Shown: positions 4,334-49,149 of the stretch, piece after piece
Numbering within the stretch: position 1 is the stretch's first letter
Layout of the letters: every line of letters begins with the position of its first letter
Assembly (NCBI RefSeq): GCF_905475395.1
Contig: NC_058340.1
Span: forward strand, 54,910,181-54,974,180
Direction: 5' to 3'
DNA: 64,000 nucleotides
Origin: Chrysoperla carnea
Lineage: Eukaryota; Arthropoda; Insecta; Neuroptera; Chrysopidae
Translations under genes and position numbers: made by a program
The notes under the pieces: model-generated
What the model was told of the DNA's origin: nothing
The model's input: only the letters and a program-made list of their open reading frames with translations
The model's database searches: none

Positions 4334-4345
4334 TGGTGGAAGCGC
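4334..4345 (+). promoter_or_regulatory. TGGTGGAAGCGC site 1
   Basis: Exact copy of the 12-bp word, followed by AGTGAAAAT. It sits in the last intron of the left-hand gene, outside recognised repeats. See the finding on this motif set. Confidence 0.5.
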
Positions 4346-4645
4346 AGTGAAAATACTGACAAATTGAATAATGGAATCATTCAAAACAGGAAGATAATTT
4401 TAGAGATTATTATGGTAAGCCCTTATTAATATAGTGTTATACATTCTAGAAGTGTTTCAAAGTTCAAAACATACTCGAATTTCAATATTTTTGATATAAT
4501 CTTACGATTTTTTACTAAACTTTCACCTGGAGAAGTATAGCAGAAAATTTAGACCACCGTAGCTTCAGCTCCTACACCACATGTTCATAAACTAATTTCG
4601 ATCTATATCTCGATGGGTAAACTTTAAAATCATTCTAGAAGACAA

Positions 4646-4725
4646 TACAGTGGACTCGGGGTAATCCGACAAACGTTTTGCAAGGTGGTGTTGAATTATC
4701 GAATTTTTCCGATTATAGAGTAATT
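4646..4725 (+). mobile_element. pogo/Tigger-type terminal fragment
   Basis: A TA dinucleotide followed by CAGTGGACTCGGGGTAATCC, then a TTATCGAATTTTTCCGATTAT stretch in pieces. This is the known arrangement of pogo-superfamily terminal repeats, where CAGT is followed by a GATAATCCGA-like box. No matching opposite end was found nearby, so this is a solo end fragment. Confidence 0.5.
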
Positions 4726-4810
4726 ATTTATTAATTAAATAATGTTATTTAAATTTTTCATGTAGAAATTCGGTAGCTTTGCTCTAAGGTGTAAGGTATA
4801 TGGACTTCAT

Positions 4811-5320
4811 CTTAAGGTAGTACCAGCATGAAATCACTTTTCGACAGATTTGGCCGAATTTTTTTTCTCGGGTTTATAATAGCTTTATTTATGAATTCCT
4901 AAAATTTCATAATTTTTGACCGTTTAGATCGCGAGATATTTAAAGACAAAGTTCGCGATTTTGAGGGTCATGTCCCATTTAAAGCATGTAAAATGTCCGG
5001 TCTCTCCAACTATTTTTTATGATATTATTATATATTGAAGAAAAAGTAGAAAAAAATGTTTATACAATACAATTCTAAAAAAAAAATTTAGAAATTAATT
5101 TTCACTTTCGAGATATTAATTTTGACGTAAATTGATCGAAATTGGGACGTTGGCATAATTATTTCCCATTTTAAACGGTCAAAATTTCTGAAACTTTGGG
5201 AATTAATAGTAAGCATTATTAAATTCTTAAATTTAATTTTTCGTTAAATTCTGTCGAAAAAAAAATTGTACCATTGCTTTAACATAGAAACTGCAAATAC
5301 CATGCTGGAACATCCTTAAG
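4811..5320. mobile_element. MITE of 510 bp with about 20-bp terminal inverted repeats
   Basis: The left end CTTAAGGTAGTACCAGCATG and the reverse complement of the right end, CTTAAGGATGTTCCAGCATG, match at 17 of 20 positions. The interior contains CGCGATTTTGAGGGTCATG and AAAGCATGTAAAATGTCCGG followed by CCAACTATTTTTTATGAT. The same internal blocks recur at about 14340-14480. There is no open frame. It lies within the last intron of the left-hand gene. TTAA at both ends could be part of the target site. Confidence 0.7.
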
Positions 5321-5547
5321 TTCGGTTCAATACAGAAAGAAATTTCCAAAATTCAGTTGTCTCAAACTAATCTCCGAAAAATATTACCACATTTCATACC
5401 ATTAAGTGTAAAATGTTAGATAAAATTTAGTTTTATCGGCAACAGTTTACTAAGGTCTATTTTAACAAATCACAAGACTTTTGAGAGCGAAACCTAACAT
5501 ATAAAAAATAATTTGTAAACTAATCAAATAACATTTTAGAAACTTAC

Positions 5548-5719
5548 GTAAAACTGCCAAGACTCCAACGATCAATATCTGGAGATTCAATACCATCAAT
5601 GCCATTTTCTTCAAGCGATACCGATGGTGATGATTCTTTTGGTTCACGTTTAACAATAACACCCATATCATCTAGAGGGATTTCACCCGTCTCCATTATA
5701 CAACCGCCAATCTGCATAC
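5548..5719 (-). CDS. Upstream coding exon of the same unnamed regulatory protein
   Basis: The exon is bounded by TTGTTGCAG (AG at 5721-5720) and the donor GTAAGTT (from 5547), both good splice signals. It opens with GT and then ATG at 5717. From that ATG the visible protein would be 841 residues. It reads MQIGGCIMETGEIPLDDMG, then VIVKREPKE, where VKRE is a sumoylation consensus, and ends SPDIDRWSLGSFT with the last codon split across the intron. The 2-nt lead before ATG fits either an internal exon in phase or a coding start just inside the exon after a non-coding first exon. I cannot decide between these. The intron down to 3669 is 1,879 bases and holds several repeats. Confidence 0.85.
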
Positions 5720-6862
5720 CTGCAACAATAATAACAAAAATTTATAAAATAATTTTATTTCAAATAAAGGTAAGTACCCTACATCTAAAGGTATTTATAG
5801 GCATACATTTAAGGACGTTCATTCTCCAAACTGTTTTGTTTTGTGCGTTCAAGGGAAAACAGTGTTAATATGTATGTATACCGTTTTTGTTTCTAGGGAA
5901 CTAATTTGACAACTGCCAAGACGATTTATGCTTAATATGTTTTGTTATTTCACCGTAAATTGACACAGGCCAGAATAGCGCTTCAAAAATGTGGAAAACT
6001 TCAAGTTTTCTATTAATAGTTGATATTTTTAATAGTCTAAGATTTCAGTCTTGGTTGAGTTGCCCGCATCGAGTTTCCTAACAAAATTAATATTTTATAA
6101 AAGGTAATGTATAATTCAACAAAACGTGCTAGGTTGCCGCCCGATATGTTGGCAAGGCTGTGCGTAATGATTAATGCTAACTTTTATCGGTTTTTCTTAT
6201 ATATTATGCATAAAATTAAGCTTGTAAAATTGAGAATACGATATAAAAAAAGCAAAGCTTTTACGCTTATATAAATCTAGTATAGAAAAAAAATCAAATA
6301 TTATGGTGAAAACAAATTATTGTAAAGTTTCATTGAAATCATTTCAGTAGTTTTCTAAATCTTCCAGCGAAGCAATTGGGTAAGTAACTACTAGGGTGAT
6401 GTTATATACCCTATAGCCTTCCTCGATGAATGGACTATCCAGAACTAAAAGAACTTTTCAATTCGAACCACTAGTTCATGAGATAAGTAAGTTCAGACAA
6501 ACATACAAACAAACTCTTCAACTTTATAATATTAATAAGAATATAATGTACAGAAATGGTGGAGGTATTGGAAAAAATAACTTTTGATTTTTTATCTTAA
6601 ATTACAAAAATTATGTTAATTAAAGAACAAGCCACAATTTGTTTTCGTATTTTCCTATTCATTAAAATTATAAAAACATAATTTTGTAAAATAACATCTT
6701 AAAATAAATCATCAAAAAATATTTTACCGATAAAAAAATGTTAACTGTTATTTATTATTAGCTTCATTGATTTATCAAAACATTTATTACTAATAATAAC
6801 TAGAGCACAAATATAACATCAACTAATCTTTAAATATGTACCTTGAACACACAGCTTCAGTA
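5720..6862. other. Intronic or 5' flanking DNA of the left-hand gene
   Basis: Apart from the repeat tail at 6330-6545 I see no further exon. If 5719-5548 is preceded by a non-coding exon upstream, this is intron sequence. Confidence 0.4.
6330..6545 (+). repeat. Widespread insect interspersed repeat, 3' part
   Basis: The order 'TATAGCCTTCCTCGATGAATG, ACTAAAAGAACTTTTCAATTC, AGTTCATGAGATAAG, acaaacatacaaacaaac, TTTATAATATTAATAAGA' is, from memory, a repeat tail found in very many insect genomes. No coding content. Confidence 0.55.
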
Positions 6863-6934
6863 GCCGTGATCGTCTAGTGGTTAGGACCCTACGTTGTGGC
6901 CGTAGTAACCCAGGTTCGAATCCTGGTCACGGCA
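6863..6934 (+). tRNA. tRNA-His (GTG)
   Basis: A complete 72-nt cloverleaf. The acceptor stem is GCCGTGA/TCACGGC with discriminator A. The D arm is GTCT/GGAC. The anticodon stem CTACG/CGTAG has loop TTGTGGC, giving anticodon GTG. The T arm is CCAGG-TTCGAAT-CCTGG. The internal promoter boxes are intact, and a run of ten or more Ts starting at about 6961 would end RNA polymerase III transcription. No intron and no encoded CCA, as expected for a eukaryotic nuclear gene. It is antisense to the left-hand gene and would lie in its intron if that gene starts near 8 kb. Confidence 0.95.
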
Positions 6935-7152
6935 ATGTGAAAACATTGTCACGGGGAAGCTTTTTTTTTTATATTTTGTATTAATTAAACTAATATTTTA
7001 GTTTTTTATGAAGTTTTAGTTTAGTTTTGTGTATTATTTTCTCAATGCCATCTTTTTACAAAATTGAAAAACTTTAAAACTAACGAGAATTAAATTTTGA
7101 ATTAACTTAATTTTTTACAGAATGTTCGAAGAATAATGCAAAAATTAAACAA

Positions 7153-7202
<50 letters not shown>

Positions 7203-7660
7203 AGAAACGAATATTACTGTATACTGAAATTTTAGTTTCAGGAAATAAATCTCCAGTGCATTTATAAAAAGGCATTAATCTATACTCAAATTTTTCGATA
7301 TCTGCCTTGGTTTCTTGGTTTCCGAAATATCGAAAGCTGAGTAATTAAACAAAATTTTCAATTTTCGATTAGTTTTGGATAAATATTTAAAAAATAATCT
7401 TCACCTATGGAAATATAAGAGAAGGCAAAATAGGAAGAATCAGACAAAATCAAAATCTTATTTAAAAGAATAAATATTCAATCTTAAGACCAAAGAAAGT
7501 TTTCGAGCTTCGTAAGAGTTTAAACAATTTTTCCCTTTAAAAAACTTTTTAACAATTAAAATGAAGTAGTTTAAGTTATAAAAAAAAGAGTTATGCAACT
7601 TATAAAACATTAATGTAATGCACATAGATAATTTACATAAACAATGATAAACAATTCACT
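6935..7660. other. Gene-free stretch with an AT microsatellite
   Basis: It holds the tRNA-His terminator T-run, an AT microsatellite at 7155-7194, and otherwise nothing I recognise. Confidence 0.5.
7155..7194. repeat. (AT)20 microsatellite
   Basis: Twenty uninterrupted AT dinucleotides. Confidence 0.95.
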
Positions 7661-7670
7661 ACCCACCTAA

Positions 7671-8930: not shown

Positions 8931-8935
8931 TTTAT

Positions 8936-10070
8936 TTATCAAAATGCAAATAATAACCACTAAGGGCATGATAAAAAGGAAGGTAAAAATTGATGAAGGC
9001 AAAAGTATTCATACCGTGGCAAATATGGTAGAAGATTTTTTGACAGAATCAAATAAAGAAAAATTACTAATATAAATATTTAAAACATGAAAATGATTTT
9101 GTTTGCAAAAAAACTAATATGCTTTCATTATGTTACCTAATGTGTAGTATAAAAAGGGATGATTTTGATAAATTTTGGAAACAAGGAAACAAATAGCACA
9201 TTTTTTTAACGACATAAATATTAGAAACGCGACCAAGAATCAAGAGAAAAGAGACCAAGAATCAACATAGAGGTGGATTATGGTACGGGTACGCTATGGG
9301 GAGAATGAATTACTGCTTCGAAATGTTTTGAAGTAATGACTGTTGATAATACCAACATAACGTCACCAAAATGGATGACAGCGTTTTTGATGCAATAAAA
9401 AAGGTTTAAAATTTAATCTTATGGCAAAAAAGCGTGTTAATTTTGCCAGAATATAATTTTTTGTGGCTTTTTATTAGGAAAATCAACATTTAGAAAATTT
9501 CCGGCAACGAAGATTTTTATCCTTGGAGCGTTGGTGACTAACATTAAAATTTAAATTTGCAATTTATATTAGCAATAGAAGCGCAAGGCACTTTAACTTA
9601 GTATTACAATCATAATATTCCATTTTATTTCTCGACGCGTTCACCATTATAATTTTATAAAATTTTCTAAGTTAATTTTCAAAGCGAAACATGCAATAAT
9701 TCTATAGGATCAGGTAAGTTAAAACTTTTGGTTGTAGATATATGAAGGCAACTGAGCATATAAGAGGTGGTATTTTATAAGGTAACTACCGTGATCCCAA
9801 TATATTTATAAGCATCATGTATTTTTTAGCCTAATGTTTAATCGAGAAAAGTACATAGTAATATTTTCGGCGAAATTGGCCAGGTTTTTCTTAAATTTCT
9901 TGATCGTATAAAAGTTTTCTTCTAAAGGTAGAAACTATAAATGAAAATTTTCACCTTAGATGTTTACAAGAAGGCTTTATTACAAAAAGAATGGAAGTGC
10001 TATTTAATCTATACGCAAGCGAAGTCGTAGGTAAATTATAGTCATACAATAAATCGTAATTAGCAAACTT
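8936..10070. other. Gene-free stretch
   Basis: A 42-codon frame at 8944-9072 (starts MQIITTKGMIKRKVK) has no recognisable domain. A partial match to the recurrent 12-bp word, GAAGCGCA, lies at 9578-9585. Nothing else was recognised. Confidence 0.5.
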
Positions 10071-10076
10071 TTAAAA

Positions 10077-10340: not shown

Positions 10341-10345
10341 TTCGA

Positions 10346-12021: not shown

Positions 12022-12578
12022 TTTTTATACCATGTATATATGAAATATACATAGTATATTAAGTTTAGTCCCAAGTTTGTAACGCTTAAAAATAATGATG
12101 CTAGGAAAAAATTTTTGTCATATGTGTTCATAAAATCACCTAATTAGTCCGTCCGTCCGTCTGTCCGTCTGTCGACACGATAACTCAAAAACGAAAAAAG
12201 ATATCGAGCTGAAATTTTTACAGCGTACTCAGGACGTAAAAAGTGAGGTCAAGTTCGTAAATGAGCATCATAGGTCAATTGGGTCTTGGGTCCGTAGGAC
12301 CCATCTTGTAAACCGTTAGAGATAGAACAAAAGTTTAAATGTAAAAAATGTTCCTTATCAAAAATTAAACAACTTTTGTTTGAAACATTTTTTCGTAAAC
12401 ATCACTGTTTATCCGCGACGGCGCCAATTAGGCGGAAATTTTATAATATGTACTATACTTGATTATCAGTTATGTATGTGTCACATGTTTGTATGTGTAA
12501 TGTGATAAAGAAATCAACACTGACTATACATGGTATTTTAACAATTAACTCAGTCAATTGTTTGTTTTCACTTGTTTT
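12022..12578 (+). mobile_element. HINE-like element, copy 1 (near complete, about 557 bp)
   Basis: It starts TTTTTATACCATGTATATAT. It has a GTCC/GTCT microsatellite at about 12147-12173 and a near-end inverted partner of the ATACCATGTATA box at 12526-12540 (CTATACATGGTAT). A tight hairpin follows (CAATTAACT-C-AGTCAATTG), then the terminus TTTGTTTTCACTTGTT. The layout (sub-terminal inverted repeats, internal microsatellite, 3' hairpin, T-rich insertion site) is that of non-autonomous Helentrons such as DINE-1. It is very similar to the copy at 44843-45411. Confidence 0.75.
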
Positions 12579-12699
12579 CTTAAATTTTAAATAAAAATCC
12601 TTAAATAAAATCAACAACAAGTCAAATAAATTTACATAAGGGAGTAGGTATAATAAAAACATATAAATTTTGGGTTTATATTTTAAATTTTAAGTCTTG

Positions 12700-13475: not shown

Positions 13476-14264
13476 ATAAAAAGGTACATAATTCTCGTAT
13501 AAGAACCATATTGGTATAAAATATTTATCTTAATAAATGTCAAACCATTTTCGATTGTGTTGTTATTTTAAAATATTTACATCCTACATAAACAATTTAA
13601 CACAAATTAACACAATTGTCTATTAAAGTTAGGTGCAGGTTCATTATTTTATATATATAGTTAGTAGTATAAGGCTAATGTATTCAATTTTTAATGACTA
13701 TAAATTAATTAAAGATAGAGGAAAAAAGAAATTAACTTATAAATTAAGAAAAGATAAAGGAAAATAAATGTTAATTATCGAATAGAATATAATCATCTTC
13801 AAAATACTTCCTTCTTTATTAAATTTATTTTCCATTTTTGTGATATTATCAAAAACGTGTTTAGGAAATAGGTTTTCGAGGGTACTACATCAATTACAAA
13901 ATTCCATTGTATTTATCGCAATAACAAAAGTCAAACGATATTTCGTGTTGTGCTTTAAGGTATATAATGCCCTTAAAACCACTTTTTCTATGGATTAAAT
14001 GTGCAAGTTGACTAAAACTGACACAGATTTTGTTCAAAAAATAACTATATAATACCATAATTAATGACAAATTTTTTGGTATCAAGAAAATTATTTTTTG
14101 ATCGTCTTGTTAAAATATGCAGGTATGTCTAGGTATAATTTGTATATGATTGCATACTATGTCTTAGTATTGAGTACAATAACAAGTGTATTATCAAAAA
14201 TAGTGTATATGAGTATATTTTTATAAATTTGACTAAAATGGAATAATAAAACAAAAACAATATT
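13476..14264. other. Gene-free AT-rich stretch
   Basis: I see no supported coding, RNA or repeat feature here. Confidence 0.5.
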
Positions 14265-14276
14265 TGGTGGAAGCGC
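14265..14276 (+). promoter_or_regulatory. TGGTGGAAGCGC site 2
   Basis: Exact 12-bp word, followed by AAAGAAATG. The flanks do not resemble those of site 1. Confidence 0.5.
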
Positions 14277-14339
14277 AAAGAAATGAAATAAGATAAGAGC
14301 TACGTTTGTTATTTGAAAACATACCGTGCTATTATTGAA

Positions 14340-14720
14340 TGCACTTGTGGATAGATTTGGCCTATTTTTTCGTAGGCTCAGAATAATGTTAACTGGGAGA
14401 ACCCGATAATCAATTGTAAAATTCGCGATTTCGGGGGTCAAAGCATGTAAAACTAACTGTCTTCCCAACTATTTTTTATGATTAAAAAAAATTCTCACGA
14501 CTTAATTGAAAAAAAAATAGGATAGTTGAAAGGAATCTTTTTAGAAAAAAAAAATGCCTAAAATTGGTCTTCAAAAAATATTCTAAAATATCGAAATATA
14601 TTGTGTAAAAATTCGAAATCGATCAGTCGAGCCGTATCGGAGAAATCTTACTCCCCGACTTTGAAAACGCTGTTTCAAGGAAAATGCGTTAAAAGTTTTA
14701 AAAACGTTTACACTCAGTTA
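14340..14720 (+). repeat. Fragment related to the 4811-5320 MITE
   Basis: It shares the blocks TCGCGATTTCGGGGGTCA, AAAGCATGTAAAACTAACTG and CCAACTATTTTTTATGAT with the 4811-5320 element. A further block (CGTATCGGAGAAATCTTACT, GACTTTGAAAACGCTGTTTC) belongs, from memory, to a common insect repeat. No terminal repeats remain. Confidence 0.5.
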
Positions 14721-14725: not shown

Positions 14726-15276
14726 TTTTTATACCATATATATGAAATATTCCAAGATATATTAAGTTTAGTCCCAAGTTTTTAACGCTTAAAAATATTG
14801 ATACTATGAACAAAATTTTGGTAAAGGTGTTCATAAGATCACCTAATTAGTCCATTCCCGGTTATCTGCCTGTCTGTCTGTCATCACGATAACACAAAAA
14901 CGAAAAGAGATATCAAACTGAAATTTTTATAGCGTAAAAAGTGGGGTCGAGTTCGTAAATGAGCAACATAGGCCAATTGGGTCTTAGGTCCGTAGGACCC
15001 ATCTTGTAAACCGTTATAGATAGAACAAAAATTTAAAGGTAAAATATGTTCCTTATAAAACAATAAACAACTCTTGTTTGAAACATTTTTTTCGTAAACA
15101 TCACTGTTTATCCGTGAGAGCGCAAACTATGCGCAAATTGTATAATATGTATAATATGGGAATATCAGTTATGTATGTGTGACATATATGTATGTGTAAT
15201 GTAACAGAGTAATCAACACTCTCTATACATGGTATTTCAACAATTAACTCAGTCAACTGTTTGTTTTCACTTGTTT
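14726..15276 (+). mobile_element. HINE-like element, copy 2 (near complete)
   Basis: Same order as the copy at 12022: ATACCATATATATG start, AAGTTTAGTCCCAAG block, CTGTCTGTCTGTC microsatellite, GACCCATCTTGTAAACCGTT block, CTATACATGGTATTT, 3' hairpin (CAATTAACTCAGTCAACTG, slightly broken) and the CACTTGTT end next to a T-run. Confidence 0.75.
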
Positions 15277-17103
15277 TTTTTGTTAATATTTTTTTTTTGC
15301 GTTTGTTAATTTTTTGGTGTGATTTGTCTTTGTGAATATTTTCGGATTAACTTGAAATTTTCAGAGAATATACTTAAATATATGAGCATTCCGAAAATAC
15401 AAAAACAAAATCGATTCTTTGAAAATTCAAACTGGATATAACCCCTTAATTAAGTAGGAAAACGTAGGATTCTTTTTATCACATTTCTTCATTTCATTCA
15501 CTTTTCCATTTTAAATTTTAATTACTGTGTTTATGTCTAAACAATTCTATATCCTTGCCTACAACAAGAAGTTTAAAATAAATTCTACATACATCCAATA
15601 TACAATACAAATATATATTGAATGATTTTATTTTACAATAATTATTCTATGTATGTACATATAAACAAATATATATATATGATTATATACAAATAAGTAT
15701 CAACATAATATACTTCAAATGTATGTATGTACACTATGTACAGTATGTAATATTATTATTGTTCTATATTTGAATCAGATAATCTGGTACCACGTGTTTA
15801 ATGTTATTGTATTTCAATATTATGTTAACTATATACAGAAGAATACATAAAGATACAACAACATATAGTATGTATGTACTTACATACGTCTTATATGTGT
15901 AGATAATATGTATTCAATATTGGTACATGGTACTTTTAGTTCATACGCTAGAGTCTATTTTTGATGTAAGGCATCTTTAGATCTAGCTTGAGTTTTTTTT
16001 GAATTTTTCATTGATGTAAATTCGATTAGATCATTTGCTTCAAAAGTCTTACAGCTATAATAAACTTTACGATATTTCTGGGCAACAATTTATTTCCTTC
16101 CATTAAAAAAGGCTTTCCTTCCATAAATGCCTTTGCAAATTTAATTTGACTTCTGTCCTTTCAATTTTTTTATTGTAGTTTTTACAATACCTTAAGATAG
16201 AATTCTGAGCCGTTTTGTGAAATCCATGCACCTATTTTAGCTAATAATACTTGTCTTTAAGATGCATTTTGTTAAAATATATCCCCTTCAGAACCCAAAA
16301 TCACATTTTTCCGAAAATATTCACGTTTTTTCAAAAAATTTCACAATTTTCGTCAATTTTTCATAGATTTTTTCTTTTTTTAAGTTAAAATTATCAGCTT
16401 GATAAAAAACATATAAACTTCATAATTGTTTCCGTAAAATAACCGGCTAATTTTCTAAATTTTCCGCTTTCCACGTTAATGTTGTGGAAAATTTACCCAA
16501 AAAATATATAGAAACCCATTTTGCGGGCACTTGTATTATAAGTTGACGAGACTTTCCATGCGTATAATAATGTATCTTTTCGGTGAGAAAAAAGTATATT
16601 TTCTTATCTTAAAAAATAGTCACTTAAGATAAAAAAGTTTGAAATTTGTCAATTTTAGGCATTTTTTTAATTTAAAATGGTTGTAGCTTTTTTAAAACGA
16701 ATTTTTTCGAAAAAATTACAAAAGTAAAAAGTGTTTTGTGTTGCCCGTTTTACCCTTAGACAGCGAGATATATAAAACAACTGTTTATTAGTTAACAAAT
16801 TAATTTGTTTATAACAATTAATAGCCTACTCGCACAAATTTGTTTTCTTACCAATTGACTCCTTTTGGTCCAAAGTTTACGAAAAGTACAAATATGTTTA
16901 GTCACATTCACAATTTAGTGATTGGTCAGTCATTTTCATTTCTACGCACTTTTTCAGGAGCTTGCCGCTTACCTATCGATATGTGTCGAATATATTAGTA
17001 ATTTTTCAATCACCTCAATGCTTACGGAGAACTGAATTTTTTCACACAATTTCAGTTTTAATGACAATAAAATATGATAACATCATTTTCCTGACTAAAG
17101 CTA
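15277..17103. other. Gene-free AT-rich stretch
   Basis: TATA- and GTAT-rich simple sequence around 15600-15900, and TTTTTC-type low complexity around 16280-16400. No gene supported. Confidence 0.5.
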
Positions 17104-17115
17104 TGGTGGAAGCGC
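17104..17115 (+). promoter_or_regulatory. TGGTGGAAGCGC site 3
   Basis: Exact 12-bp word, followed by ATTGAAGAATAT. It lies 2.8 kb from site 2, in the same orientation. Confidence 0.5.
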
Positions 17116-19115
17116 ATTGAAGAATATAAAAAGAAAATTTATGAAAAAGAAGGAAAATTTAATTCTTTTTTTTTCCTGTTGTTCTGCTCTTTAATCACCC
17201 TGGATGAAATTTTTCAGGATATTTAAATCACTTAAATTCGAGTCAAGGATGTAAAATTATCGTTACAATTATAAATTGAGCACAGCGAATGAACTAAGTA
17301 TATGCAGATGTGAATGGTGAATTACAGTCACCGATCACTCCCGCAGTGTATTGCTTTTACGATTACACTGTGCGATATATACGTGTATCGCTTTTATTTT
17401 ATTCAAACATCTGTGAGTGTGGATTTATAATGGATTTTTTTTCTTTAATGTTTCCTGAATATGTTTATAATATTAAACAGTTTATTTATTGAGTTACTAC
17501 GATAAGATTTATAACTATAAGACTAACATTGTACTAGGAAAAATGAAAGCACACATTTTATCTAAAACATTGACCAGGATGGCATAAAATATTTTTTACT
17601 AAATCCCTTTCTACCTGAAGTGGAAGCTATATAATGGATTTTCCAACCCTAAGGTCATTTATAATTTTTGGTTCTGTTTCCATGTGTTCTGTCTTGGTTG
17701 AGGCTAAAGTGATATATTTTTAAAATAATGTTGGAGTCAATTTTGAGAAAATTTTTAGTACTGGCTCCATTATCTGGTCATATTGCTTTATGTTTACTTT
17801 TCAAAAAGTCCAAAACACACTTTTCATATGTGAATATAAATGAAATTTTAAAGTGCTCTAACAATAACAAAATTGGCAATTTAAAAAAGTTTGTTAAACC
17901 GTCGAATATAAAACGCAAAAAGTGGTCTTAACGTAAATTATCAATAAGTATTTCTGTTTAAAAGTAATAAAATAAGAATGCAGTCTAGAATTGTTTCTAA
18001 AACGAAAATTTGAAAAAGAGAAATACAATTAGCTTAAAAAAGCATGTGTAAAAATTAGAAAAAAATCACTTTCAGCTTTCAAATGATATCGATGTTGATT
18101 TATTTTTAAACGACCACAGTCAAAAGTTTCATTTTGAATTTCAGAGTATGCATTTCGGTCAAAAAGCTCGAACAACAGAGCGAAAAAGCGCATTTTAAAA
18201 AGAAATCACCTTGCTGAATGTTTCGTTGATATAAAGTATTAGAAAACAAGAAATTCATAGCTGTGAAAACAAGAAATTCATAGCTATCGAATGAAAAGTA
18301 GCTGTTCCCGATACGATTATTTTTTTCGGAGATTGAAATAGTTCGTATGTTTCTAAGCGGCTCAATTTTGATGATTAGTGTACACATTTATTTTTATTAA
18401 ACTTTAATTTTATTAATAAACATACTATTGATATAGCATTACGTTCATTTAATTAATATTGAAAATTTTAATTTTGATATACCTGTCAATAAAAAATCTA
18501 AGCACATAAAGAAAACATTACAAATATGAAACAATAACGCATTCTATACCCAATAATTCTATAGATATTTTAACATGTACATATCAATTTTCTATTATTA
18601 TAATTTCTAAATATCTTTAATCAAAATTCTCATTCATAAAATATAACTTTTTTTATTATTTATTTATTATTTGACATATACGAGCGAAAGGTCAAATGGC
18701 TAACAACAATAAGTAGTTTTTATGTCAGCATCAATAAATTTTGTAAATTAATTTCTTTCTTTTAGTTTTGTATTTATTTTGTCATACTTTTTATATTATG
18801 GGTTTGCTTTTATTTTCGCACATTTAAGGTGCGAAATGTCGTTTTTAAATATATTCAAATTTTACATATTATATTAATGAAACACATTCCCATTTTGAAT
18901 TTTGAGAATATTCTTCAAAATTAAATTCAGATTTAAATAGAAGATATTTTCAAACCCAGCAGCTTTAAAGATTAATTACTATTGCTCTTTACTCTTTAAT
19001 AATCTTGTCAAAAATATTCCAATAAGTTTTATCAAGCAGTTTCGATAACACTATAAAATTCAGAGGACTCATGTGAAAATTAAAATTATTTTGCCATACG
19101 ACAATCGGTGCCTTT
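17116..19115. other. Gene-free stretch
   Basis: A 21-bp segment (GAAAACAAGAAATTCATAGCT) is directly repeated at about 18241-18285. Open frames at 17310, 17728 and 18106 show no domains, splice support or codon bias I would trust. Confidence 0.45.
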
Positions 19116-25566: not shown

Positions 25567-26085
25567 TTTTTATACCATGTATATATGTAATATATATCAT
25601 AGTATGTTAAGTTTAGTCCCAACTTTGTAACGCTTAAAAATATTGATGCTTCGAAAAAAAATGTGATATAGGTGTTCATAAAATCACCTAATTAGACCAT
25701 TTCGGGTTGTCTGTCCGTCTGTCTGTCAACACGATAACTCCAAAACGAAAAGACTTAAAAAGTGACTCTGGACGTAAAAAGTGAAGTCGAGTTCGTAAAT
25801 TAGCAACATGGGTTGTAAACCGTAATAGATAGAACAAAAGTTTAAATGTAAAAAATGTTCCTTACAAAAAAATAAACAACTTTTGTTTGAAACATTTTTT
25901 CGTAAACATCACTGTTTACCCGTGAGGGCTCTAATTAAGCGCAAATTGTATAATATGTATTATATGGGAATATTAGTTATGTATGTGTGACATATATGTA
26001 TATGCAATGTGATAGAGTAATCAACTTAGTCTATACATGATATTTCAACAATTAACTCAGTCAATTGTTTGTTTTCACTTGTTTT
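25567..26085 (+). mobile_element. HINE-like element, copy 3 (small internal deletions)
   Basis: Start TTTTATACCATGTATATATG, block AAGTTTAGTCCCAACTTTG, microsatellite TGTCTGTCCGTCTGTCTGTC, hairpin CAATTAACTCAGTCAATTG, end CACTTGTT. It lacks the block between 'AGCAACATGGG' and 'TTGTAAACCGT' present in the other copies. Confidence 0.75.
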
Positions 26086-26221
26086 TATTATATTTTATGC
26101 ATAATCAATTCCTTAAATAATTTATCAACATTAAAAGTCTGTATTAATGAGTTTTTATAGGTTTAATTTAATTTAATTTACAGACTGAGCAATACAGTAA
26201 ATTATACCGCGGACCATACAT

Positions 26222-26233
26222 TGGTGGAAGCGA
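26222..26233 (+). promoter_or_regulatory. TGGTGGAAGCG(A) site 4, one mismatch
   Basis: TGGTGGAAGCGA followed by CAGGAAATC. It matches 11 of 12 bases of the word, and the G + A-run on the 3' side is kept. Confidence 0.45.
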
Positions 26234-26585
26234 CAGGAAATCAATTTCTAAAAAAACAACCAAAATACTGAGAGAGTAATGTGATATTAAATAACAAGCA
26301 TTTTTTATTTTAATAATAAATATTTAAGCTATTAAATGTATAAGTTATCTCTTGAACTATTTCAAAAACACGGTAATAATAAATGACAGCTTACTTCTTT
26401 CTTCATAATAAAAACAAGAATTTTAAATTTTTTAAACGTTCCAGTTCATAACATATAGCTAAGTAAATTTAAAATAATTTATGAGTTTATTCAAGATTTC
26501 AACATTAATTCTTTTTTGTATATTTTCAAAATGTTTTAAATATGTCTTAATATACGATACCTTTTAAATTTACATACCTTGATAT

Positions 26586-32566: not shown

Positions 32567-33099
32567 TTTTTATACCATGTATATGAAATATACCAAGGTA
32601 TACTAAGTTTAGTCCCAAGTTTGTAACGCTTAAAAATATTGATGCTATGAACAAAATTTTGGTATTGGTGTTCATAAAATCACCTAATTAGTCCATTTCC
32701 GGTTGTCTGTCTGTCGTCTTTCTTCTGTCCGTCTATCATCACGATTACTCAAAAACGAAAAGAGATATCAACCTAAAAATTTTATAGCGTTCTGAGGACG
32801 TAAAAATTGAGGTCAAGTTCGTAAATGAGTAACATAGGTCAATTGGGTCATGGGTACGTAGGACCCATCTCGTAAACCATAAGAGATAAAACAAAAGTTT
32901 AAATGTAAAAAATATTTCTTATAAAAATATAAACAACTTTTGTTTGAAGCATTTGTTCGTAAATATCACTGTTTACCCATGAGAGCGCAAATTATAGTAT
33001 TGTATGACATGCATGTATGTGTAATGTGACAGAGTAATCAAAACTATTTATACTTGGTATTTCAACAATTAACTCAGTCAATTGTTTGTTTCACTTGTT
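32567..33099 (+). mobile_element. HINE-like element, copy 4 (near complete)
   Basis: Start TTTTATACCATGTATATG, AAGTTTAGTCCCAAG block, an expanded and irregular GTCT/GTCC tract, GTAGGACCCATCTCGTAAAC block, hairpin CAATTAACTCAGTCAATTG and end CACTTGTT. A (CAAA)n-rich repeat tail ends just upstream (32505-32560). Confidence 0.75.
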
Positions 33100-36000
33100 C
33101 TTTGGGATGTTACCAACCTATAAAAGTCAACATCCTTTAGTCATTACTATCAAACCATTTTTATTTTTTTAAAGTTAATAACATTAAGAATAGCAAATAT
33201 TACTCATAAAATTTATTCAGAATCATTCGCTAAAAGCGTAGAATTTGTAATAATACCATATATGGTATTATTAATTTTTTTGGTGTGGGTTTTATATTAT
33301 TCTATATATACCTACTACGTGAGTGATTCCAACAAGATATAAAATTATATAGTTTAAAGTATTCTAAATGATTAATTAATTAATATATAAAACCACACCT
33401 AATTTTATTAGCGGAAACTGTAGGAATATTTTTGTTTTTGTGTTCATATCTATTTCAAATAATTAAAATTGGAGTGTCTGTTTGTAATGCCAAAACAACG
33501 CATACATGAATCTTTATACATGGTACTAATTTTTTAAATTTTTGTCATATTATATGTATCTATTCTCCGTGTGATTTTCATTGACAGGTAGGGGATGTTA
33601 TAAAAAAAGTAACTTTCCTACTTATATTTTTGAAAAACAATTAGCACTTCGTAAATTGGGAACAAAATAGCTGTTGTAGCGTAAATTGGAAGCAGGGCAA
33701 GCAGTTTGAAGCCTAAAATTTGATGATATTTGTTTTTAAAACTGATATAGGCTATATTGTGAGTGTCAGGAGAGTTAGTGTTGCAAGAGTTAAGAAACAT
33801 AAGTAAGGACAAGGGATTTGAATGATAATAGGTATGAGGTAATATTCATTTTTGAAAGAAGAAGTTGAAATTGACCAGCAAAGTGAGCGGGTTGTGGCTA
33901 GTAGAATCATATTTTTTTTGCCTATAACTGGTTTTATTTTACAATTAATAATCTATGATTTAAAGATTTAATTTATAATATAAGTAATTTGTATTTATAC
34001 TTCTTCTTAAGACTTTAAAACGTCAAGAATTTATTAAAATACATCAATAATTTAATTATTTTAATTTAGCATATTAATGACGTACGTTGCTTTACTGAAA
34101 AAACAGGATTCATCAAAAATTTTCAGAAAATTAAAATAAAAAAATATTATTATAAATGTCAATTTGTATTTTTTGTCATAGTTTAATGTTTTATCATTTA
34201 AAAAAAATTGAGTTGTGAAAGTTATCAGGAGTTAAAGCTAATTTAAAGATAATTTAAAGTAAATATAATGAAATTGTTATGTTATGACATAATAAATATC
34301 CTGATCAAACCAAACGTAATGTACGCACATATTGGATTGACTACTAAATCAGAAGTATGTCTTTTTTTAAACTAATATTACAATTAATTCATACAGTAAA
34401 AAGTAAAAGTAGTACTGTACTTCAAAAATAAATTCCTTAAATTTTCAGAAATGCTGCGTTTATAATGTACCAAGGTATGAAAGGAATATAGTTCCTACCG
34501 ATCGTCTTACCGAGATACAGTAAGTAAAATATTGATTTGTTTTAAGTTAGATGTTAATTGATTGCAAAAACCAACAGCCGCAGTTTAAGAAGTTTTAAAA
34601 CAATATTGAATAAATATTCTTATTTGATCGTCAGCTGATTTATAATTTGCTAATTAATAATAAGCTTTGCTTGAGCAAGTTTTTAATTTTTAACATAGTA
34701 GCTCGTGTAAGTGAATATTCTGAATATTCAAAATTTTTAAATTATGGGAGACACCATAAACTTTATCACAATAACGAAACGAAACAAAGAAATAATGTGA
34801 GCTTTATATAATAGTGTGAGCGCACTTTGTTCCAGAAAAGAATGGATTTAAGGTACTAAAAGGTTCATTCAACAAAACCGCAGATGCTTTGAATATTGTG
34901 CTGTTCAATTAATATCTTTTTGCTCCAATATCTCAGTAATAAATTATTTTCAACATATAACGTGTAAAGTTATTTTGTTTAATTTAAGATAAAGACCATG
35001 CAGCTAAAATAGTACCTGGTTGTTGTACATTTTGCTTAATTTCAGTAAGAAAATAGGTATGACAAGACAACGGAGCTTCAATGTAGCGAATATTCTTGTT
35101 ATTAAATTGCTTATTTATAAATTCAAATTTTTATAGAGATTTTTGACTCAAAAATACAAAAATCATTACAAAAATGGGACAAAAAAACCATAAAACTGCA
35201 TAATATATTTACTAGATCTAGTAGATAGAGCAGTTACCACCATTCTGTACCTTTACATCGTTCCCGACGCTTCCGTACTTTTATTTTTATTATATGTATA
35301 TATTTTTTATGCGGTCAATTAAATTTTATTAAAAATAGATTAAAATGAATTAATTACATTTGAATTAATTCTTTGATTAATTTTAATTAATTAATATTTT
35401 ACGTTAATTTTTTTTTTTTACGTTAATATTTTAACGTAATTACATCTCACATTTAATAAAAATTTTCAAATGATTTATTTGCAATTAATAGTTTTATTTA
35501 TCAAATAAATGATGGAAACGATTGATTAATTATAATAGAGAACACAAGAAGTTCTAACAAAAACAAAAATCAAAATACAAAGTAAAAACTTTAACATGAA
35601 AATTAGACGTAAAATATCTTTGGTAGTATTTGGTGAAATTCAATAAGAACATCAAGATTTAAACTTGAAAAATAGATTATAAAAGTTTGGTCAAACTTTA
35701 AACACTTAAAAGCTGAAAAAGACGATTAAAATTTAGCATCAATAAATAAAAATTGCGCGTTCCAAATTTAATACGTTTCAATTACACCAAAAAGAAAACA
35801 ATTTTTACATCTTCCCTGCACCTACACCATTAATAAATATTATTTTTGCAAACCACGCAAGAAAATAACCTATTAACAATAAATTATGAGTCTGGCCAAT
35901 TTAAAAATAATTAGGTCTATTTTCAAATGATTTACAAATCAATTAAACCAAATTCGACTACAAATAAACATATAACAAAGTGTCTTATACGTTTCAGAAG

Positions 36001-38933: not shown

Positions 38934-40649
38934 ATAATAATGATTCTTACAACAGAATATGAGACAAAAAGTGGAATAAAACTAAAATTGTTGTGTTTCA
39001 ACACGAAAGACAGATAAAAGATTAAACTGAAATTACACACTAGCAGAATGATAGAATTTCTCTCTTGACTGAATTTCTCACTTTGAATTGAAGTCTCTTT
39101 TCGATTATTTAGAAAATTCTCGAGATTAGAAAGATTTTACCAGATTTTATAGAAATCAAGAATGTTAACTAAAAGTTAAAAACAAGACTTAGCAAGTTTA
39201 TTACAACATTATAACAAAAACTGTACAAACTGACGTTAATAGGAAAACTGAATTATAAATGAGGCCAAAGGAGAAATCGAATATCTTGGTTTAACAATAT
39301 AATGAAGTATATCTCAATAATGTTTCAGCAACTTATTTAGTTAATTTGTTGGAGACAAAGAATTTTGAAACCAGGAATATCACGTATAGGACAAAGTAAT
39401 TTATCATTTGCATTGCGCTTCCACCATATTTATTAAACAGATTGACAAAAATTCAAAATTCAAATTTCTATTTCGACTTTATCGAATTGCTATAGCTATG
39501 TTTTGATGTTGACTAAATTTTTTTCACACTTCAGGTGAAGAATTCTCACTGCACGGACAGAAAAGTGAAGTTGGTTTTTTAAAATCTTTAGAAGTACTCA
39601 AAAAACGATATATAAAAATTCCTTGTAATCTAATATTCTTTAGTTATCATCTTCGGAGAAAGGACCCTCTTAACTTTCAAAGCTTGTTATGGTATCAAGT
39701 CTAATTTTACATTTTTACGAGTAATGGAGCAAATACGGATAACAGCCATCAACCCAGTTATATTGATATGATGGCCTCAAAAAATAAAAAATTTATAAAC
39801 TGAAAGTTGAGATAATCGTATATGGTGAGAAAACTATAATTCTTTTTAAGTGCTTTTTGAAGGGCTGATAAAGATTAGGTTAAAGGTAATAAAGAAAATT
39901 GAAGCTTAAACTAGGACTTCTCGCCTCTTGTAAACTGCTTGCATTAGCTTTTACATATTGTGTTGGTAATGACTTTCTGATTATTTGACGAAAATAAAAG
40001 AAAATAATCATTTAAAAATTTTGATGAAAAACTCTATTCATTGCCGTTAATGCGTAGGGATGGATTAAGACAGTTTGCGAAACTTTTTTTACCTAACGAA
40101 TATTTCCTTTCGTAAATCTTTTTTACGCTACCTTCAGGTCATCTATGTTATATGGACACAGTAAAATGAGTGATGAAACTTCACCGCCGTAAAGGTTATT
40201 AAGCATACAGAATATTAAAGCGTGCCATTTTATAATGAAGTTAGATTTTTGCCTTACAAGATTTAAACTATCTATACATTTTCTTTACTTTTAGGTAAAT
40301 ACTTAAAATGGTGTTTTTTTGCTAGAGCTGTTACAGTGTAGATGATAACAAAAAAAGGTAACTGAACAGTGTATACACACTCACACACCTGAGAATTGCA
40401 TTATGCTGCTAAGCAAGCATTACCACGAATACATTATTCCATTTGAAACACTTAAGATTATTTGCATATTTCTTTCTTATTTCAAGATAGAATATTTTCT
40501 TGTATACATAAAAATCGTTAGGCTGAACAGGCGTATGCTTATAATTTCTTTTTGATAGAAGGACAATCCTGCAAAAATACATAAAAAATTCATCTGTGCA
40601 AAAATATGGTCCCAACAATAAACGCATATACAGAAAATGGACCTAATTT
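38934..40649. other. Gene-free stretch containing one TGGTGGAAGCGC site
   Basis: Apart from the site at 39415-39426 nothing is recognised. The frame at 40409-40627 has no domain. Confidence 0.45.
39415..39426 (-). promoter_or_regulatory. TGGTGGAAGCGC site 5 (minus)
   Basis: GCGCTTCCACCA on the plus strand. On the minus strand the word is followed by AATGCAAATG. Unique flanks. Confidence 0.5.
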
Positions 40650-42240: not shown

Positions 42241-42244
42241 ACAT

Positions 42245-43425: not shown

Positions 43426-43429
43426 TTAA

Positions 43430-43973
43430 AATTTAACTAATCTTTTACAATCTTCTAAAAATCAAATATCAAGAAATTCTCGTTCTATTATGTTAAAAAT
43501 ATATTGTCTGCAAAAGTGATAAAATTAATAATATAAAAATTTAATTAATATTCTTTATAATAACCAAAAAAAAATTGTTTTTTCAATTAAACTACAATTT
43601 AATTAATTACATAATTTCTACCCTAATTTACATAAAATATCAATAAAATGTTCCGTTTAATATTCAAAAAAAAGAATTGCATCCTTAATACATAATAATT
43701 ATTAATACTTATTACAATAACCACTTTCAAATTATGTATTATATTTTTAAATGCCTTTAAGTCTATATAATTTATCAAAACTACAACTATTAATTATTTA
43801 TAAAATAATAATAATTATTAATTATAAATAATACAGATATTTTTATATTATTAACATATCCATATGTTGTTACATATAGGTAATACTTATAGATACATAA
43901 TATAACATACTGAGAACCAAAACAAATCAGACAATCACTTTATTTTTGCGGTGAAAACCAACCACTAGAAACT
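43430..43973. other. Gene-free, very AT-rich stretch
   Basis: Runs of TTAATTAT and ATAAT. Nothing else recognised. Confidence 0.4.
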
Positions 43974-43985
43974 GCGCTTCCACCA
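43974..43985 (-). promoter_or_regulatory. TGGTGGAAGCGC site 6 (minus)
   Basis: GCGCTTCCACCA on plus. On minus it is followed by AGTTTCTAG, the one site without the G + A-run. Confidence 0.5.
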
Positions 43986-44690: not shown

Positions 44691-44691
44691 T

Positions 44692-44831: not shown

Positions 44832-44842
44832 GATTTAATTTT

Positions 44843-45411
44843 TTTTATACCATGTATATATGAAATATACATAGTATATTAAGTTTAGTCCCAAGTTTAT
44901 AACGCTTAAAAATAATGATGCTGGGAAAAAAATTTTGTCATAGGTGTTCATAAAATCACCTAATTATTCCATTTCCGGTTGTCCGTCCGTCCGTCTGTGG
45001 ACACGATAATCAAAAACGAAAAATGATATCGAGTTGAAATTTTTACAGCGTACTCAGGACGTAAAAAGTGAGGTCAAGTTCGTAAATGAGCATCATAGGT
45101 CAATTGGGTCTTGACCGGTTTGGTCCGTAGGACCCATCTTGTAAACCGTTAGAGATAGAACAAAAGTTTAAATGTAAAAAATGTTCCTTATCAAAAATTA
45201 AACAACTTTTGTTTGAAATATTTTTTCGTAAACATCACTATTTACCCGTGAGGGCGTCAATTAGGCGGAAATTTTATAATATGTACTATACTTGATTATC
45301 AGTTATGTATGTGTCATATGTTTGAATGTGTAATGTGATAAAGAAATCAACACTGACTATGCATGGTATTTCAACAATTAACCCAGTCAACTGTTTGTTT
45401 TCACTTGTTTT
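44843..45411 (+). mobile_element. HINE-like element, copy 5 (near complete)
   Basis: All family parts in order, including GTCCGTCCGTCCGTCTGTGG, GGCGGAAATTTTATAATATG and the hairpin CAATTAACCCAGTCAACTG. It has a small insertion (GACCGGTTT) at the GTCTTG/GTCCGTAGG junction compared with the otherwise very similar copy at 12022. Confidence 0.75.
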
Positions 45412-45429
45412 AATATATCATTCTAAATT

Positions 45430-45535
45430 ATAGCTCATGTGGTATTCTGATATATGAGCTATATTACTGTACAGTTTCATTAAAAACCGTTCGCTAGTTT
45501 TAACAAACAAACAAACAAACATCATTACACTTGTA
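45430..45535 (+). repeat. Insect repeat tail with (CAAA)n
   Basis: ACCGTTCGCTAGTTTTAAC followed by (AAAC)4 and ATCATTACACTTGTAAATT. It resembles the tail ending near 32560. Confidence 0.45.
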
Positions 45536-45539
45536 AATT

Positions 45540-46080
45540 ATTACAAATAGAATCGCTTCGATAAAGTTCCAAAGCATCAATGCTTTGAAGTATCAAGAAA
45601 AATGGTAATATCGTTTTTCTTTGGAGAACATCTCCCACGTTATATGTCATTTGATGAATGTCATAATTATTTCTCGATTCTCTAAGATTTTCAGTGTAAT
45701 TATTGGAAGATTTTTTTTTTCGGAATAATAAATTCATATTTATAATTTATGCAAGAACATACAAGGTATATTTAAATGGTGATAAATATTTTAAATATAA
45801 TAAATGAATTTGCTTATATTAAGTTCTAATGATTAACATTTATTATTAAATATTTATATTTATTTATATGTATTGTATTATATATATTTCTATAATAAAT
45901 GTATATCAGATTTAATATTTAATCATAGGAGTATGAATGAATTGTTAGTATAAGTTGTTTTTGATGGTTGGATACTTCTAAATGTAATAGAGCATATAAA
46001 ATAAATATCTGGATGACCGATGCTTAGCTCGATATTTTTTTAGTTAAAAAGACACAAATTTTATCACTAATATAAGAACT
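45540..46080. other. Gene-free AT-rich stretch
   Basis: Nothing recognised. The 70-codon minus frame at 45525-45737 has no domain. Confidence 0.4.
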
Positions 46081-46082
46081 CC

Positions 46083-46290
46083 ACATAAATACAAATTTTA
46101 ATGTCCTGGCTATATATACTTTATTTCGTTAACTACGATATACACCAATAGATGTCAGGAACAGTCATATTTTGCAGTATATGTTTCAGTTTTTCATGAA
46201 AAGACGGATAAAATGGCGTATTTTAAAAATGAAACCTAGCAAAATCGACTTTTCACCCCAAAAAAAACCCTGCATACTTATTTTGAATTG
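46083..46290 (+). repeat. Dispersed repeat (CAATAGATGxCA family), copy 2
   Basis: TTTCGTTAACTACGATATAC, CCAATAGATGTCAGGAACAG, TCATATTTTGCAGT and AATGAAACCTAGCA, parallel to 37011-37390 with a central deletion. Confidence 0.6.
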
Positions 46291-46294
46291 CTCG

Positions 46295-47144
46295 TTTAAA
46301 TTTATAAGATAGGATAACAAAACATCCTAATTCAAAAAACAGTATGTTACATAACATACAGATTACTGAAAGTGGGCTTCGTCATTTAACGATAAGGGGT
46401 TCGCGATATGATTTATGTAATTGAGACTGGATGTTTGGTACAATTCGATGACTTGATTCGAAATCCATTAATGGTCACATTCAAGAGCATTAATTCTTAT
46501 TTGAGTATTAATTAAGAGGATTCATTACTGAAAATGTCCGCAGATGAAACTTTTCAAGCTGATTTAAAAAGAATACTTTTAATTTATTTTTAGCTAGACA
46601 GAAAGACTGTCTTGAACTCTTTCGCAAAAGTGATAAATTTTCTTTTACACCTGGTCATGATAAAAACGAAATATAAAAATTAACTTGATGCTGGATGAGA
46701 ATTTAGGTTAAAATTGTCCAAAATGACTCCCAAAATCGAATCAAGTTTTGAATATGTATATGTTAACTTTCATTAAAATAAAAAAACCGCATTTTCTTTT
46801 ATAATAAGATTTTTTATTTTCTTTACGGGTGGAAGGGGCTAGTTTGTTCGATGTCGCCTAGGAACTTCAACAGGGGACGTAAATTAAAACAGCAGTTTCC
46901 AAATTTTTTTTATTTCCATTCAAAATAATTTTTTATAAAATTAATCTTAAATCAAGGGTCGCGTACGGTGGTACTTGTCGAAGGTCTCACGGGCATCCCA
47001 ACGGATGCGCGAAACGATAGGACAGCGAGCATTCACTACCCGACAATTTAAATCTACGCCAACCTTATTAATTTAGATCGAGGTAGTAATATTTTTAAGT
47101 TTTTTGTCTACAAATAAATTTTGCGTTCTAAAAATTTAGATTTT
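46295..47144. other. Gene-free stretch with a GC-rich patch
   Basis: 46963-47040 is conspicuously GC-rich for this window (GGTCGCGTACGGTGGTACTT, CACGGGCATCCCAACGGATG). I could not assign it. It may be the end of a retroelement. Confidence 0.35.
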
Positions 47145-47255
47145 AATATATGACGTCACACAGCTTGTGACCTCTTTTGCCAATGGTCCCATTTCGTTGA
47201 CACCCTTTCTTTCTCTTGACGTGTGACATAATTTATGGATGGACAAGCAACAAAG
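47145..47255. repeat. Short MITE fragment (TGACGTCAC family), copy 3
   Basis: ATATGACGTCACACAGCTTG and, further on, GACGTGTGACATAATTTATG followed by GATGGAC. This is the best-preserved of the three fragments. Confidence 0.5.
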
Positions 47256-47849
47256 CGACTGCAACTAGCTATTTCCTTGCTGATGAATATCATTTCTGAG
47301 TAATAGTAGTTGCATGATCTTTTAGCGTAAAATTTATAGCAGAGTATAAATTGGTAGGTAATTTCACAGGTTCGTATTAATACCAAAAGAACTTATTATA
47401 CAAATGACCAGAATTTATTAGATCTGGATACACGGGTCCGGTCCATTCAATAAAATATTCTAAATTAGAAAGGGCCTTCGTTTTCAAACATTTTGGGTGG
47501 CCATACATCATTATATCCTTCTTATTTATTTAATGATATGAGAAAGTAATAATTGATTTAACCAATCATATATAACAAACATACCTTTATTTTAATGAAT
47601 TAAATACTTTTATAAAATTATATGTAAAATGATTTTGTTAAAATGAAACAGAATATATAGATTATATTATGAATAAATAGTTATTATTCATATTATTTTG
47701 TATGTTTGTCTCATTTTATTGACATGTTGTATATGTAAGGATGCTGGAATTTTAATAAAATATTACAAGTTAGTTACGCTTCATTCATTTTAAATTTTAA
47801 AATATATTCTGTATAGTATTTATATATTTTATTATACTTTAACTGTGCC

Positions 47850-48530
47850 CGCAACTTCATTCGCATGGTTTTCGGTACCATTGTTTAGTTTTTTTTCACT
47901 AAACTAAAGGCTTTGCTCATGATAATGATTCATTTCTATAGATTCAATAACTGAACCATTTAGTTGCATCTAAACATATAAACATTGAGTTCACTGCGTA
48001 ACCGATCTTAAATATTCTTTCACCTTTAGAATGCTACATTATCAGCAAGTAACAGGGCCGTATTTTCTTTTCAAAATTATTCGATTCGCACTAAAAGTTA
48101 CAATCCATTAAATAGTGAACAAAAGGAAAGAGAATTGAAGGCTATAACGGGGTTAACTGTTTGTTATTTATTTTGTTTAAGCAATATTTGTGCAACTTAT
48201 ATAAAAAATTCATTCTTTCGTGATTTTTTTCTACAAAAAATATTTTTTAACTTAATAGCCATAAAAATTGATTTTAACTTTTGGTGCGGAATCCTAACTT
48301 TTTTAAAAATACAGCCCATATGAATTGGTGATAACGTAGCATTCTATAGATGAAATAATTTTTAAAATCGGTTAAGTAGTGAACTCAAAAATGATGGTTT
48401 ATATATATTTTCATACAAACTTGCATCCCCTATTTCACCCTTTTAAGGGATGAATTTCAAAAATCCTTTCTTATGTGACACTTACAATATAAAATCAATA
48501 TCTTCTCGAAATTTCTATCATTAACGATTT
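47850..48530 (+). repeat. Widespread insect repeat (CTGTGCCCGC start)
   Basis: It opens CTGTGCCCGCAACTTCATTC. It contains TGATAACGTAGCATTCTATA, TTTAAAATCGGTTAAGTAG and AACTTGCATCCCCTATTTC followed by ACCC. From memory these blocks belong to a dispersed repeat common to many insects. No terminal structure confirmed. Confidence 0.5.
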
Positions 48531-48539
48531 ATACTGGGC

Positions 48540-49137
48540 GTTGATATATTCGTCGCCCTCCGTCTGAAATGTTTCTGATTTTAAATAATATACAAAAAGT
48601 TGTCATTGAGGACTCCCTAAGAATGGCTATTTTATGTACTCCTTTTTTCCGACAAATTGATCCATTTAGGGAATCCAACTTACTTATCCGCTCTATATAC
48701 TACTCACAATATCGACAATGCCAACTTTTAAGACCCACATGCTATCCTTCAACCCGCTTGTCCTCGCTTAGCCCGCTCCCCTTACCATAAACTTTACTTC
48801 CATCCGCTTGAAAAATATTGCGGCCTTCGGTATAGAGAGTCTTTGATAATTCGATACAAAGATTGAAGGAAGTTCTAGAGCTTATTTTCAATATATTCTA
48901 CCAATAAACCGTGTGTCGAAAATATACGGTGTTTGTACTGGCGTAATTAAATTTTTCACAATCAATTTAAATTATATAAGATGATTCGGAGTGCCTCAAG
49001 CTTTAACAAAGAGTGACGTGTGAGTGATTCATGAGATAAATCAGTTTTTACTTTTTAGTATATTTAAAAACTTGTTACTAAAAAAGTATTTTTTGTTCTA
49101 CTATTTAATTAAAATTAAGAAACGTATATATCCAACA
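48540..49137. other. Gene-free stretch
   Basis: 48540-48800 is somewhat richer in GC, with a 73-codon frame lacking a recognisable domain. Nothing else recognised. Confidence 0.4.
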
Positions 49138-49149
49138 TGGTGGAAGCGC
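49138..49149 (+). promoter_or_regulatory. TGGTGGAAGCGC site 7
   Basis: Exact 12-bp word, followed by TGGGAAAATC. It lies about 850 bases upstream of tRNA-Glu. Confidence 0.5.

Follow-up and report, generated by a model that had tools for sequence, protein, structure and literature searches.

Drosophila architectural proteins read motifs of 12–15 bp through clusters of C2H2 zinc fingers (PMC8618245), and ZAD domains, whose proteins have radiated in insects, promote antiparallel homodimerisation (PMC9531945). In placozoans, the terminal repeats of Mutator carry a loop-anchor motif (PMC12221973). Here we analyse a stretch of 64,000 nucleotides from Chrysoperla carnea (the window; contig NC_058340.1, positions 54,910,181 to 54,974,180), in which a 12-bp GC-rich word recurs with a loose 3′ extension. 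The word is greatly over-represented and occurs in three settings: as solitary copies, within repeats, and in convergent pairs, mostly with 48–50 bp between the two words. We give an even chance to the reading that TGGTGGAAGCGC plus its extension is a half-site of about 20 bp for a dimerising, sequence-specific DNA-binding protein, multiplied by repeats.

Abundance and settings of the word

The whole 559-Mb assembly was searched; the window lies on its contig C4. Genome-wide the word is in very large excess, with 2,607 exact copies (1,309 + 1,298) against 11 for the reversed word, and 11,126 against 548 at up to one mismatch. This bears out the first-pass annotation of the window, which had proposed such a count after listing seven sites; all seven are there, six of them identical to the word and the seventh (26222) one base off, and the 3′ extension is as it described in six of them. 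The window has a GC content of 27.8% and holds eight matches at up to two mismatches; over 100 dinucleotide shuffles the mean is 0.74 and the maximum 3. With a hand-set weight matrix of 20 bp, modelled on the logos of a 101-site sample that includes the window's six exact sites, we find 11 window sites above 15 bits (0.3 on average and at most 2 in 20 shuffles) and 25 at 8 bits (11 in shuffles). Along C1 the intervals between sites are clumped (coefficient of variation 1.67; 17.5% below 20 kb against 6.8% expected), from which we draw no functional inference. The densest 64-kb stretch of C1 has at most 4 of 98 merged sites, so the window, with six, is dense. Among the papers listed by an open-access literature search with the word and near forms, none seemed from its title to describe the motif.

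The 101 exact sites of the sample (95 of the first 100 listed, from 3.3–30.2 Mb of C1, and the window's six) were not selected by their flanks, but represent one part of C1 and the window rather than the genome at large. In a first set of 61, the extension has A at +1 in 54, T or G at +4 in 57, A at +5 in 51 and A at +6 in 55; its general form is an A, a loose pair of bases, a G or T and a final AA. A site was called repeat-like when a BLAST match adjoined the masked word, or when its near-flank similarity reached a nominal p < 0.01 relative to 1,000 random window positions, and unique-like otherwise. The repeat-like sites fall into several families, at least A, B, C and D. A single larger repeat accounts for both B and C, which differ in the strand that carries the site, and the family D repeat spans about −145 to +40 around the word and also occurs outside the window. 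Beside family A, a by-eye comparison of the open frames of three 3-kb stretches, made without a family search, found no shared encoded protein, only a short module-adjoining stretch in common; we take this sequence as non-coding. Locus L046 has a sequence that closes with CTAGT, 14 bp upstream of the word; we take this ending to resemble a Helitron 3′ end.

Two exact words converge at 35–65 bp in 74 places of the genome; over the same range tandem pairs number 0 genome-wide and divergent pairs 1. Among 50 listed convergent pairs, the gap is 50 in 26, 49 in 18, 48 in 4, 46 in 1 and 61 in 1. An inverted partner (up to three mismatches, gaps 40–61) accompanies 23 of the 101 sampled sites, always at 48–50; in four equally wide control ranges none of the 101 has such a partner. 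The 23 sites form 21 modules, whose partner words depart from GCGYTTCCACCA at 4.8% of bases, that is, about 95% identity; the commonest partner word is GCGTTTCCACCA (10 of 21). We compared modules in 111 like-oriented pairs (interior identity at least 0.55) of 210. The partner word outlasts both the middle and the outside: partner words are 84–91% identical, middles 58–75%, a range inflated by gapped identity over short AT-rich sequence, and the 15–30 bp outside 28–38%. The extension on the exact-word side is 53–91% identical.

The modules have inverted terminal arms, and the sequence outside them is unrelated, save in the type Ib subset, part of family A. In type I modules outer conservation reaches about 11 bp leftwards and 5–8 bp rightwards; it stops nearer in type II and further out in type Ib. 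A search for target-site duplication in 41 pairs (k 2–10) found none convincing, and neither did one in 50 modules at offsets 0–15, where the best of 1,536 tests had z 4.4 (6 against 1.1 at k 3). Covariation was not found inside the modules. Within them an arm pairs with its own partner no better than with a shuffled one, which suggests a constraint on two DNA half-sites rather than on an RNA hairpin.

Two of the pairs have further inverted sequence. The gap-61 module (locus L108, C1:48250353-48250437) lies inside a nearly perfect long inverted repeat that extends into both outer flanks, and the ends of the sole divergent pair (C5:38000541-38000626) have CCAGAACTAT in common. Plain decay at about 80% identity, first suggested by the ratio of one-mismatch to exact words, was dropped because this ratio is confounded: the version found in family B supplies 3,369 of the words with one mismatch (5 copies when reversed), and others are TGGTGGAAACGC, the commonest module partner.

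The 18 unique-like sites of the sample show A or G at +2 in 17, G at +4 in 13 and A at +6 in 15, with little conservation beyond −4 to +6; one of them, L007, actually belongs to a pair. Because sites sorted by their similarity to the library are biased against T at +4, we tested the ANNGAAA form of the extension independently. Word plus ANNGAAA (TGGTGGAAGCGCANNGAAA) has 182 genome copies, compared with none for the reversed control and about 6 of 2,607 expected from base composition by hand arithmetic. Of these 182 we examined 20 from among the first 100 in the list, on contigs C2 and C3 and irrespective of flanks. In 17 of the 20 an adjacent relative is absent among the loci compared, and outside the motif the logo has no peaks. 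Of the other three, two are copies of one repeat with a gap-50 pair, and the third has a 37-bp repeat that begins 14 bases past the word. The T form, ANNTAAA, has 853 copies. Removing the exact and T forms from the one-mismatch neighbours leaves 1,621 − 182 − 853 = 586, about 3 per exact copy, a rough ratio that the loose extension positions inflate; by our arithmetic, neutral relics with flanks about 35% identical would have about 30. For the solitary site at 14265 we searched window positions 14165–14400 against the genome (207 candidates, 40 scored). Apart from the query's own place, 39 matches were scored, and the site is covered by none of them: one stops before it and 38 begin at least 60 bases after the word, from 14336. 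The repeat that starts there (14336–14400) recurs at 84–92% identity in 38 of the 39 places. Conservation beyond the surroundings varies: it is seen for the module partner words and where the motif ends in the unique-like and ANNGAAA classes, hardly for the partner extension, and not for family B.

A possible half-site or a transposon motif

Recurrence of the word alone, in mobile-like repeats and in mirror-image pairs suggests a binding site for a protein. One putative protein, probably dimeric, would hold two inverted half-sites 60–62 bp apart between arm centres. DNA has a helical repeat of 10.4 bp, so this distance is about six turns and both half-sites would face one side; that the partner words outlast their surroundings points to a protein touching both. 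The repeat families that carry the site would have spread it, and selection may have kept its solitary copies in unique sequence. A ZAD-type C2H2 factor would fit as the binder. The genome gives 150 zf-AD (ZAD) matches at E ≤ 0.001 (485 candidates, 150 scored), some of which contain internal stops. Given this abundance, the homodimerisation of ZADs and the 12–15 bp motifs of flies, a dimeric ZAD protein is a reasonable guess. A structural use (insulator, loop or promoter) would be likeliest. We regard as rather doubtful the wider proposal of an undescribed insect genome-architecture system, in which a dimeric zinc-finger protein would read the 20-bp half-site alone or as a mirror pair, with thousands of copies seeded by transposons and some hundreds maintained by selection in unique sequence. 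Dense zf-AD clusters lie on C2 at about 23.05–23.11, 72.83–72.89, 77.56–77.75 and 95.66–95.72 Mb, on C3 at 49.76–49.88 Mb and on C5 at 19.81–19.84 Mb.

The first-pass annotation had read the sites as looking like the footprint of a zinc-finger protein with a long recognition site, such as an insulator or architectural factor, with a rigid core and a loose extension in unique context. Its observation is confirmed and its interpretation partly supported. The rigid core, the real if loose extension, the sharp-edged ANNGAAA class (17 of 20 without an adjacent relative among the loci compared) and the many ZAD domains agree with it. Unique context fails for most sampled copies, which lie in repeat families, many as 48–50 bp convergent pairs that it did not foresee. 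It had also named shared flanks, marking remnants of one repeat, as evidence against itself; related flanks are present at the 83 repeat-like sites, in several families rather than one, and at 3 of 20 sites in the ANNGAAA class.

Several results weigh against the half-site. In the sample, 83 of the 101 sites are repeat-like and 18 unique-like. Uniqueness was judged mostly against about one-third of a megabase of loci, from which low-copy families could escape, and the whole-genome flank search covered one solitary site (14265). The partner set was cut at three mismatches, yet background starts only at four. The partner-side extension is 59–81% identical, hardly above the middle, so the constraint in modules is shown for 12 bases rather than the full 20. 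Family B shows no clear extra conservation of the word. A genome search with a 108-base stretch of its flank, which leaves out the word, gave 1,562 candidates, of which 40 were scored; we compared the 39 copies other than the query's own place. Their majority word is TGGTGGGAGCGC, with G at position 7 in 31 and A in 8, and only 6 carry the exact word. Mean column identity is 0.953 in the word (0.967 without position 7), barely better than in the flanks (0.936 upstream, 0.926 and 0.946 downstream); with identities so close, the word is a passenger in family B.

The close rival, to which we give somewhat less than an even chance, is that the word is a transposon motif only: a conserved end or inner recognition site, required by a transposase, in short non-autonomous elements that form an old, modular superfamily, all host copies, also the solitary ones, being relics. 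These would resemble miniature inverted-repeat transposable elements (MITEs), about 90 bp long with imperfect inverted ends, and would have larger derivatives. What keeps this reading close is that repeats carry most of the sampled sites and that uniqueness was judged on a limited set of loci. It accommodates the passenger word of family B and the modules, in which the words are conserved, the middles have drifted and the outer flanks are unrelated. By eye, the pair types and families A, B and C seem to be related, the last two as parts of a single larger repeat. Yet target-site duplication is not convincing, and differing pair types have one near-fixed length in common. The ANNGAAA form keeps 17 specified positions, mostly without a detected adjacent relative (17 of 20), and its neighbours outnumber exact copies by about 3:1 (586 against 182, T form excluded), where neutral relics would give about 30:1.

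Other explanations fare worse. A convergent pair might fold as a 74-nt stem–loop, making the module a small RNA gene; the inverted words 48–50 apart give a small-RNA-like length, and the first 8 bases outside the words pair slightly better with their own partner (0.49, compared with 0.46 when shuffled; 32 of 500 shuffles reach 0.49). Against this, covariation is absent inside the module, 78 of the 101 sites lack a partner at up to three mismatches, and Rfam at its gathering threshold matched none of 16 loci or the window's sites, so that we hold an RNA hairpin to be most improbable. A transfer RNA at the window's sites, or any other RNA known to Rfam, was likewise rejected. Solitary sites could instead be promoters of many short transcripts, in the manner of an upstream motif of small-RNA genes, as the fixed core, A-rich extension and unique surroundings might suggest; we consider this improbable, as the 20 ANNGAAA sites show nothing conserved at a fixed downstream distance to +24 and paired sites face each other. 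Chance or a base-composition artefact, for which we found nothing in favour, is ruled out by the reversed-word and shuffle controls and receives practically no weight.

Should the half-site reading hold, so exactly defined a site (19–20 bp when solitary, a 74-bp dyad of near-fixed spacing when paired) could serve to fish out its putative insect binder, and TGGTGGRAGCGC is the form in which ZAD-protein specificities would be recognised as matching. Repeat-borne and unique copies offer a natural comparison for how transposons seed architectural or regulatory sites.

Sites and neighbours in the window

The matrix ranks the strong window sites as 14265, 4334, 39415, 17104, 49138, 26222, 43974 and 62779, and the weak ones as 35818, 9635 and 59173. 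The exact sites at 4334, 14265 and 43974 are unique-like and those at 17104, 39415 and 49138 repeat-like; ANNGAAA fits two of the six (4334 and 14265). The first-pass annotation had seen none of its sites inside the repeat families visible to it; this needs qualifying for 49138, in family D, and, outside the window, for most sampled copies, whose flanks are related.

4334..4353, plus strand: solitary site, word with extension AGTGAAAA, fits ANNGAAA, unique-like flanks; 30.1 bits.
14265..14284, plus strand: solitary site, extension AAAGAAAT, fits ANNGAAA; top window score, 32.6 bits.
17104..17123, plus strand: extension ATTGAAGA; weak similarity of the near flank to another site (nominal p 0.004, uncorrected for 101 tests; 0.034 with a smaller library).
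26222..26241, plus strand: one-mismatch site (GCGA), extension CAGGAAAT; from the mismatch scan and 20-bp matrix.
39407..39426, minus strand: site with extension AATGCAAA and upstream TTTAATAAATA, which in type I pair modules forms the outer arm; nominal p 0.002.
43966..43985, minus strand: solitary site, exact word, poor extension AGTTTCTA, unique-like flanks; from the 20-bp matrix.
49138..49157, plus strand: site within dispersed repeat family D (TGGGAAAATCAGG...); from the flank comparison.
62771..62790, minus strand: two-mismatch site, extension CGGGAAAT, family D-like; nominal p 0.007.
9573..9646, no single strand: candidate decayed convergent pair with a gap of exactly 50 (CAATAGAAGCGC / TGGTGAACGCGT); from the 20-bp matrix.
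35810..35829, minus strand: weak site TGGTGTAGGTGCAGGGAAGA; 17.7 bits.
59165..59184, minus strand: weak site TGGTGGAGGTGTCGGGAAGT; 15.2 bits.
12033–12585, 14736–15284, 25581–26092, 32577–33091 and 44853–45418: copies of a dispersed repeat of about 0.5–0.6 kb.

Since its upstream sequence is the type I outer arm, the site at 39407..39426 is probably the relic of a pair module without its partner. The pair at 9573..9646 has a plus-strand word at 9573 and a minus-strand word at 9635–9646, and is a candidate by matrix score.

The 0.5–0.6 kb repeat has at least five direct copies and inverted pieces in the window (families D1–D8 pooled), and a 200-bp tandem duplication with 93% matches lies at 53582–53980. 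There are genes for tRNA-His at 6863–6934 and tRNA-Glu at 49998–50069, the latter starting 0.86 kb from site 49138. One open frame of 722 aa, in which N, S and T abound, occupies 1313–3481 on the minus strand; a Pfam search with it up to E 0.1 gave no match. It contains a PLNLC stretch, which we take to resemble a CtBP-type motif.

Comparison with described systems

MITEs are short, with inverted arms, a variable middle and unrelated outer flanks, and the pair modules resemble them in all four respects. Unlike MITEs, they lack a convincing target-site duplication, keep one length for different middles and leave most sampled sites partnerless. The CENP-B box, the nematode pairing-centre motifs and the upstream motif of nematode piRNAs are possible look-alikes. 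In the CTCF core, GGTGGCGC, the GGTGG and GCGC parts stand in the same order as in our word, without the AA that the word has between them; the opposite order given by the first-pass annotation would not fit this core. The word differs by this core, and by the near-fixed spacing of its pairs, from the CTCF sites multiplied by retrotransposons, which it resembles in that repeat families spread the binding sites (PMC3368268).

The placozoan Mutator motif, borne on transposon ends and proposed as the target of an architectural protein, and the GC-rich motif of CTEP1/CTEP2 in ctenophores are, like the present word, specific to a lineage (PMC12221973). Loops were measured in those cases; the present evidence is from sequence, target-site duplication is not convincing and no transposase came to light. 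The sites of Drosophila ZAD/C2H2 proteins (Pita, Zw5, ZIPIC and M1BP, as well as Kipferl; PMC8618245, PMC9531945) differ from ours, which form near-fixed convergent pairs, are mostly repeat-borne and have a motif not seen among the papers listed by the literature search. They are alike in their long motif and many sites; the fly architectural proteins dimerise, and this genome is likewise rich in ZAD domains.

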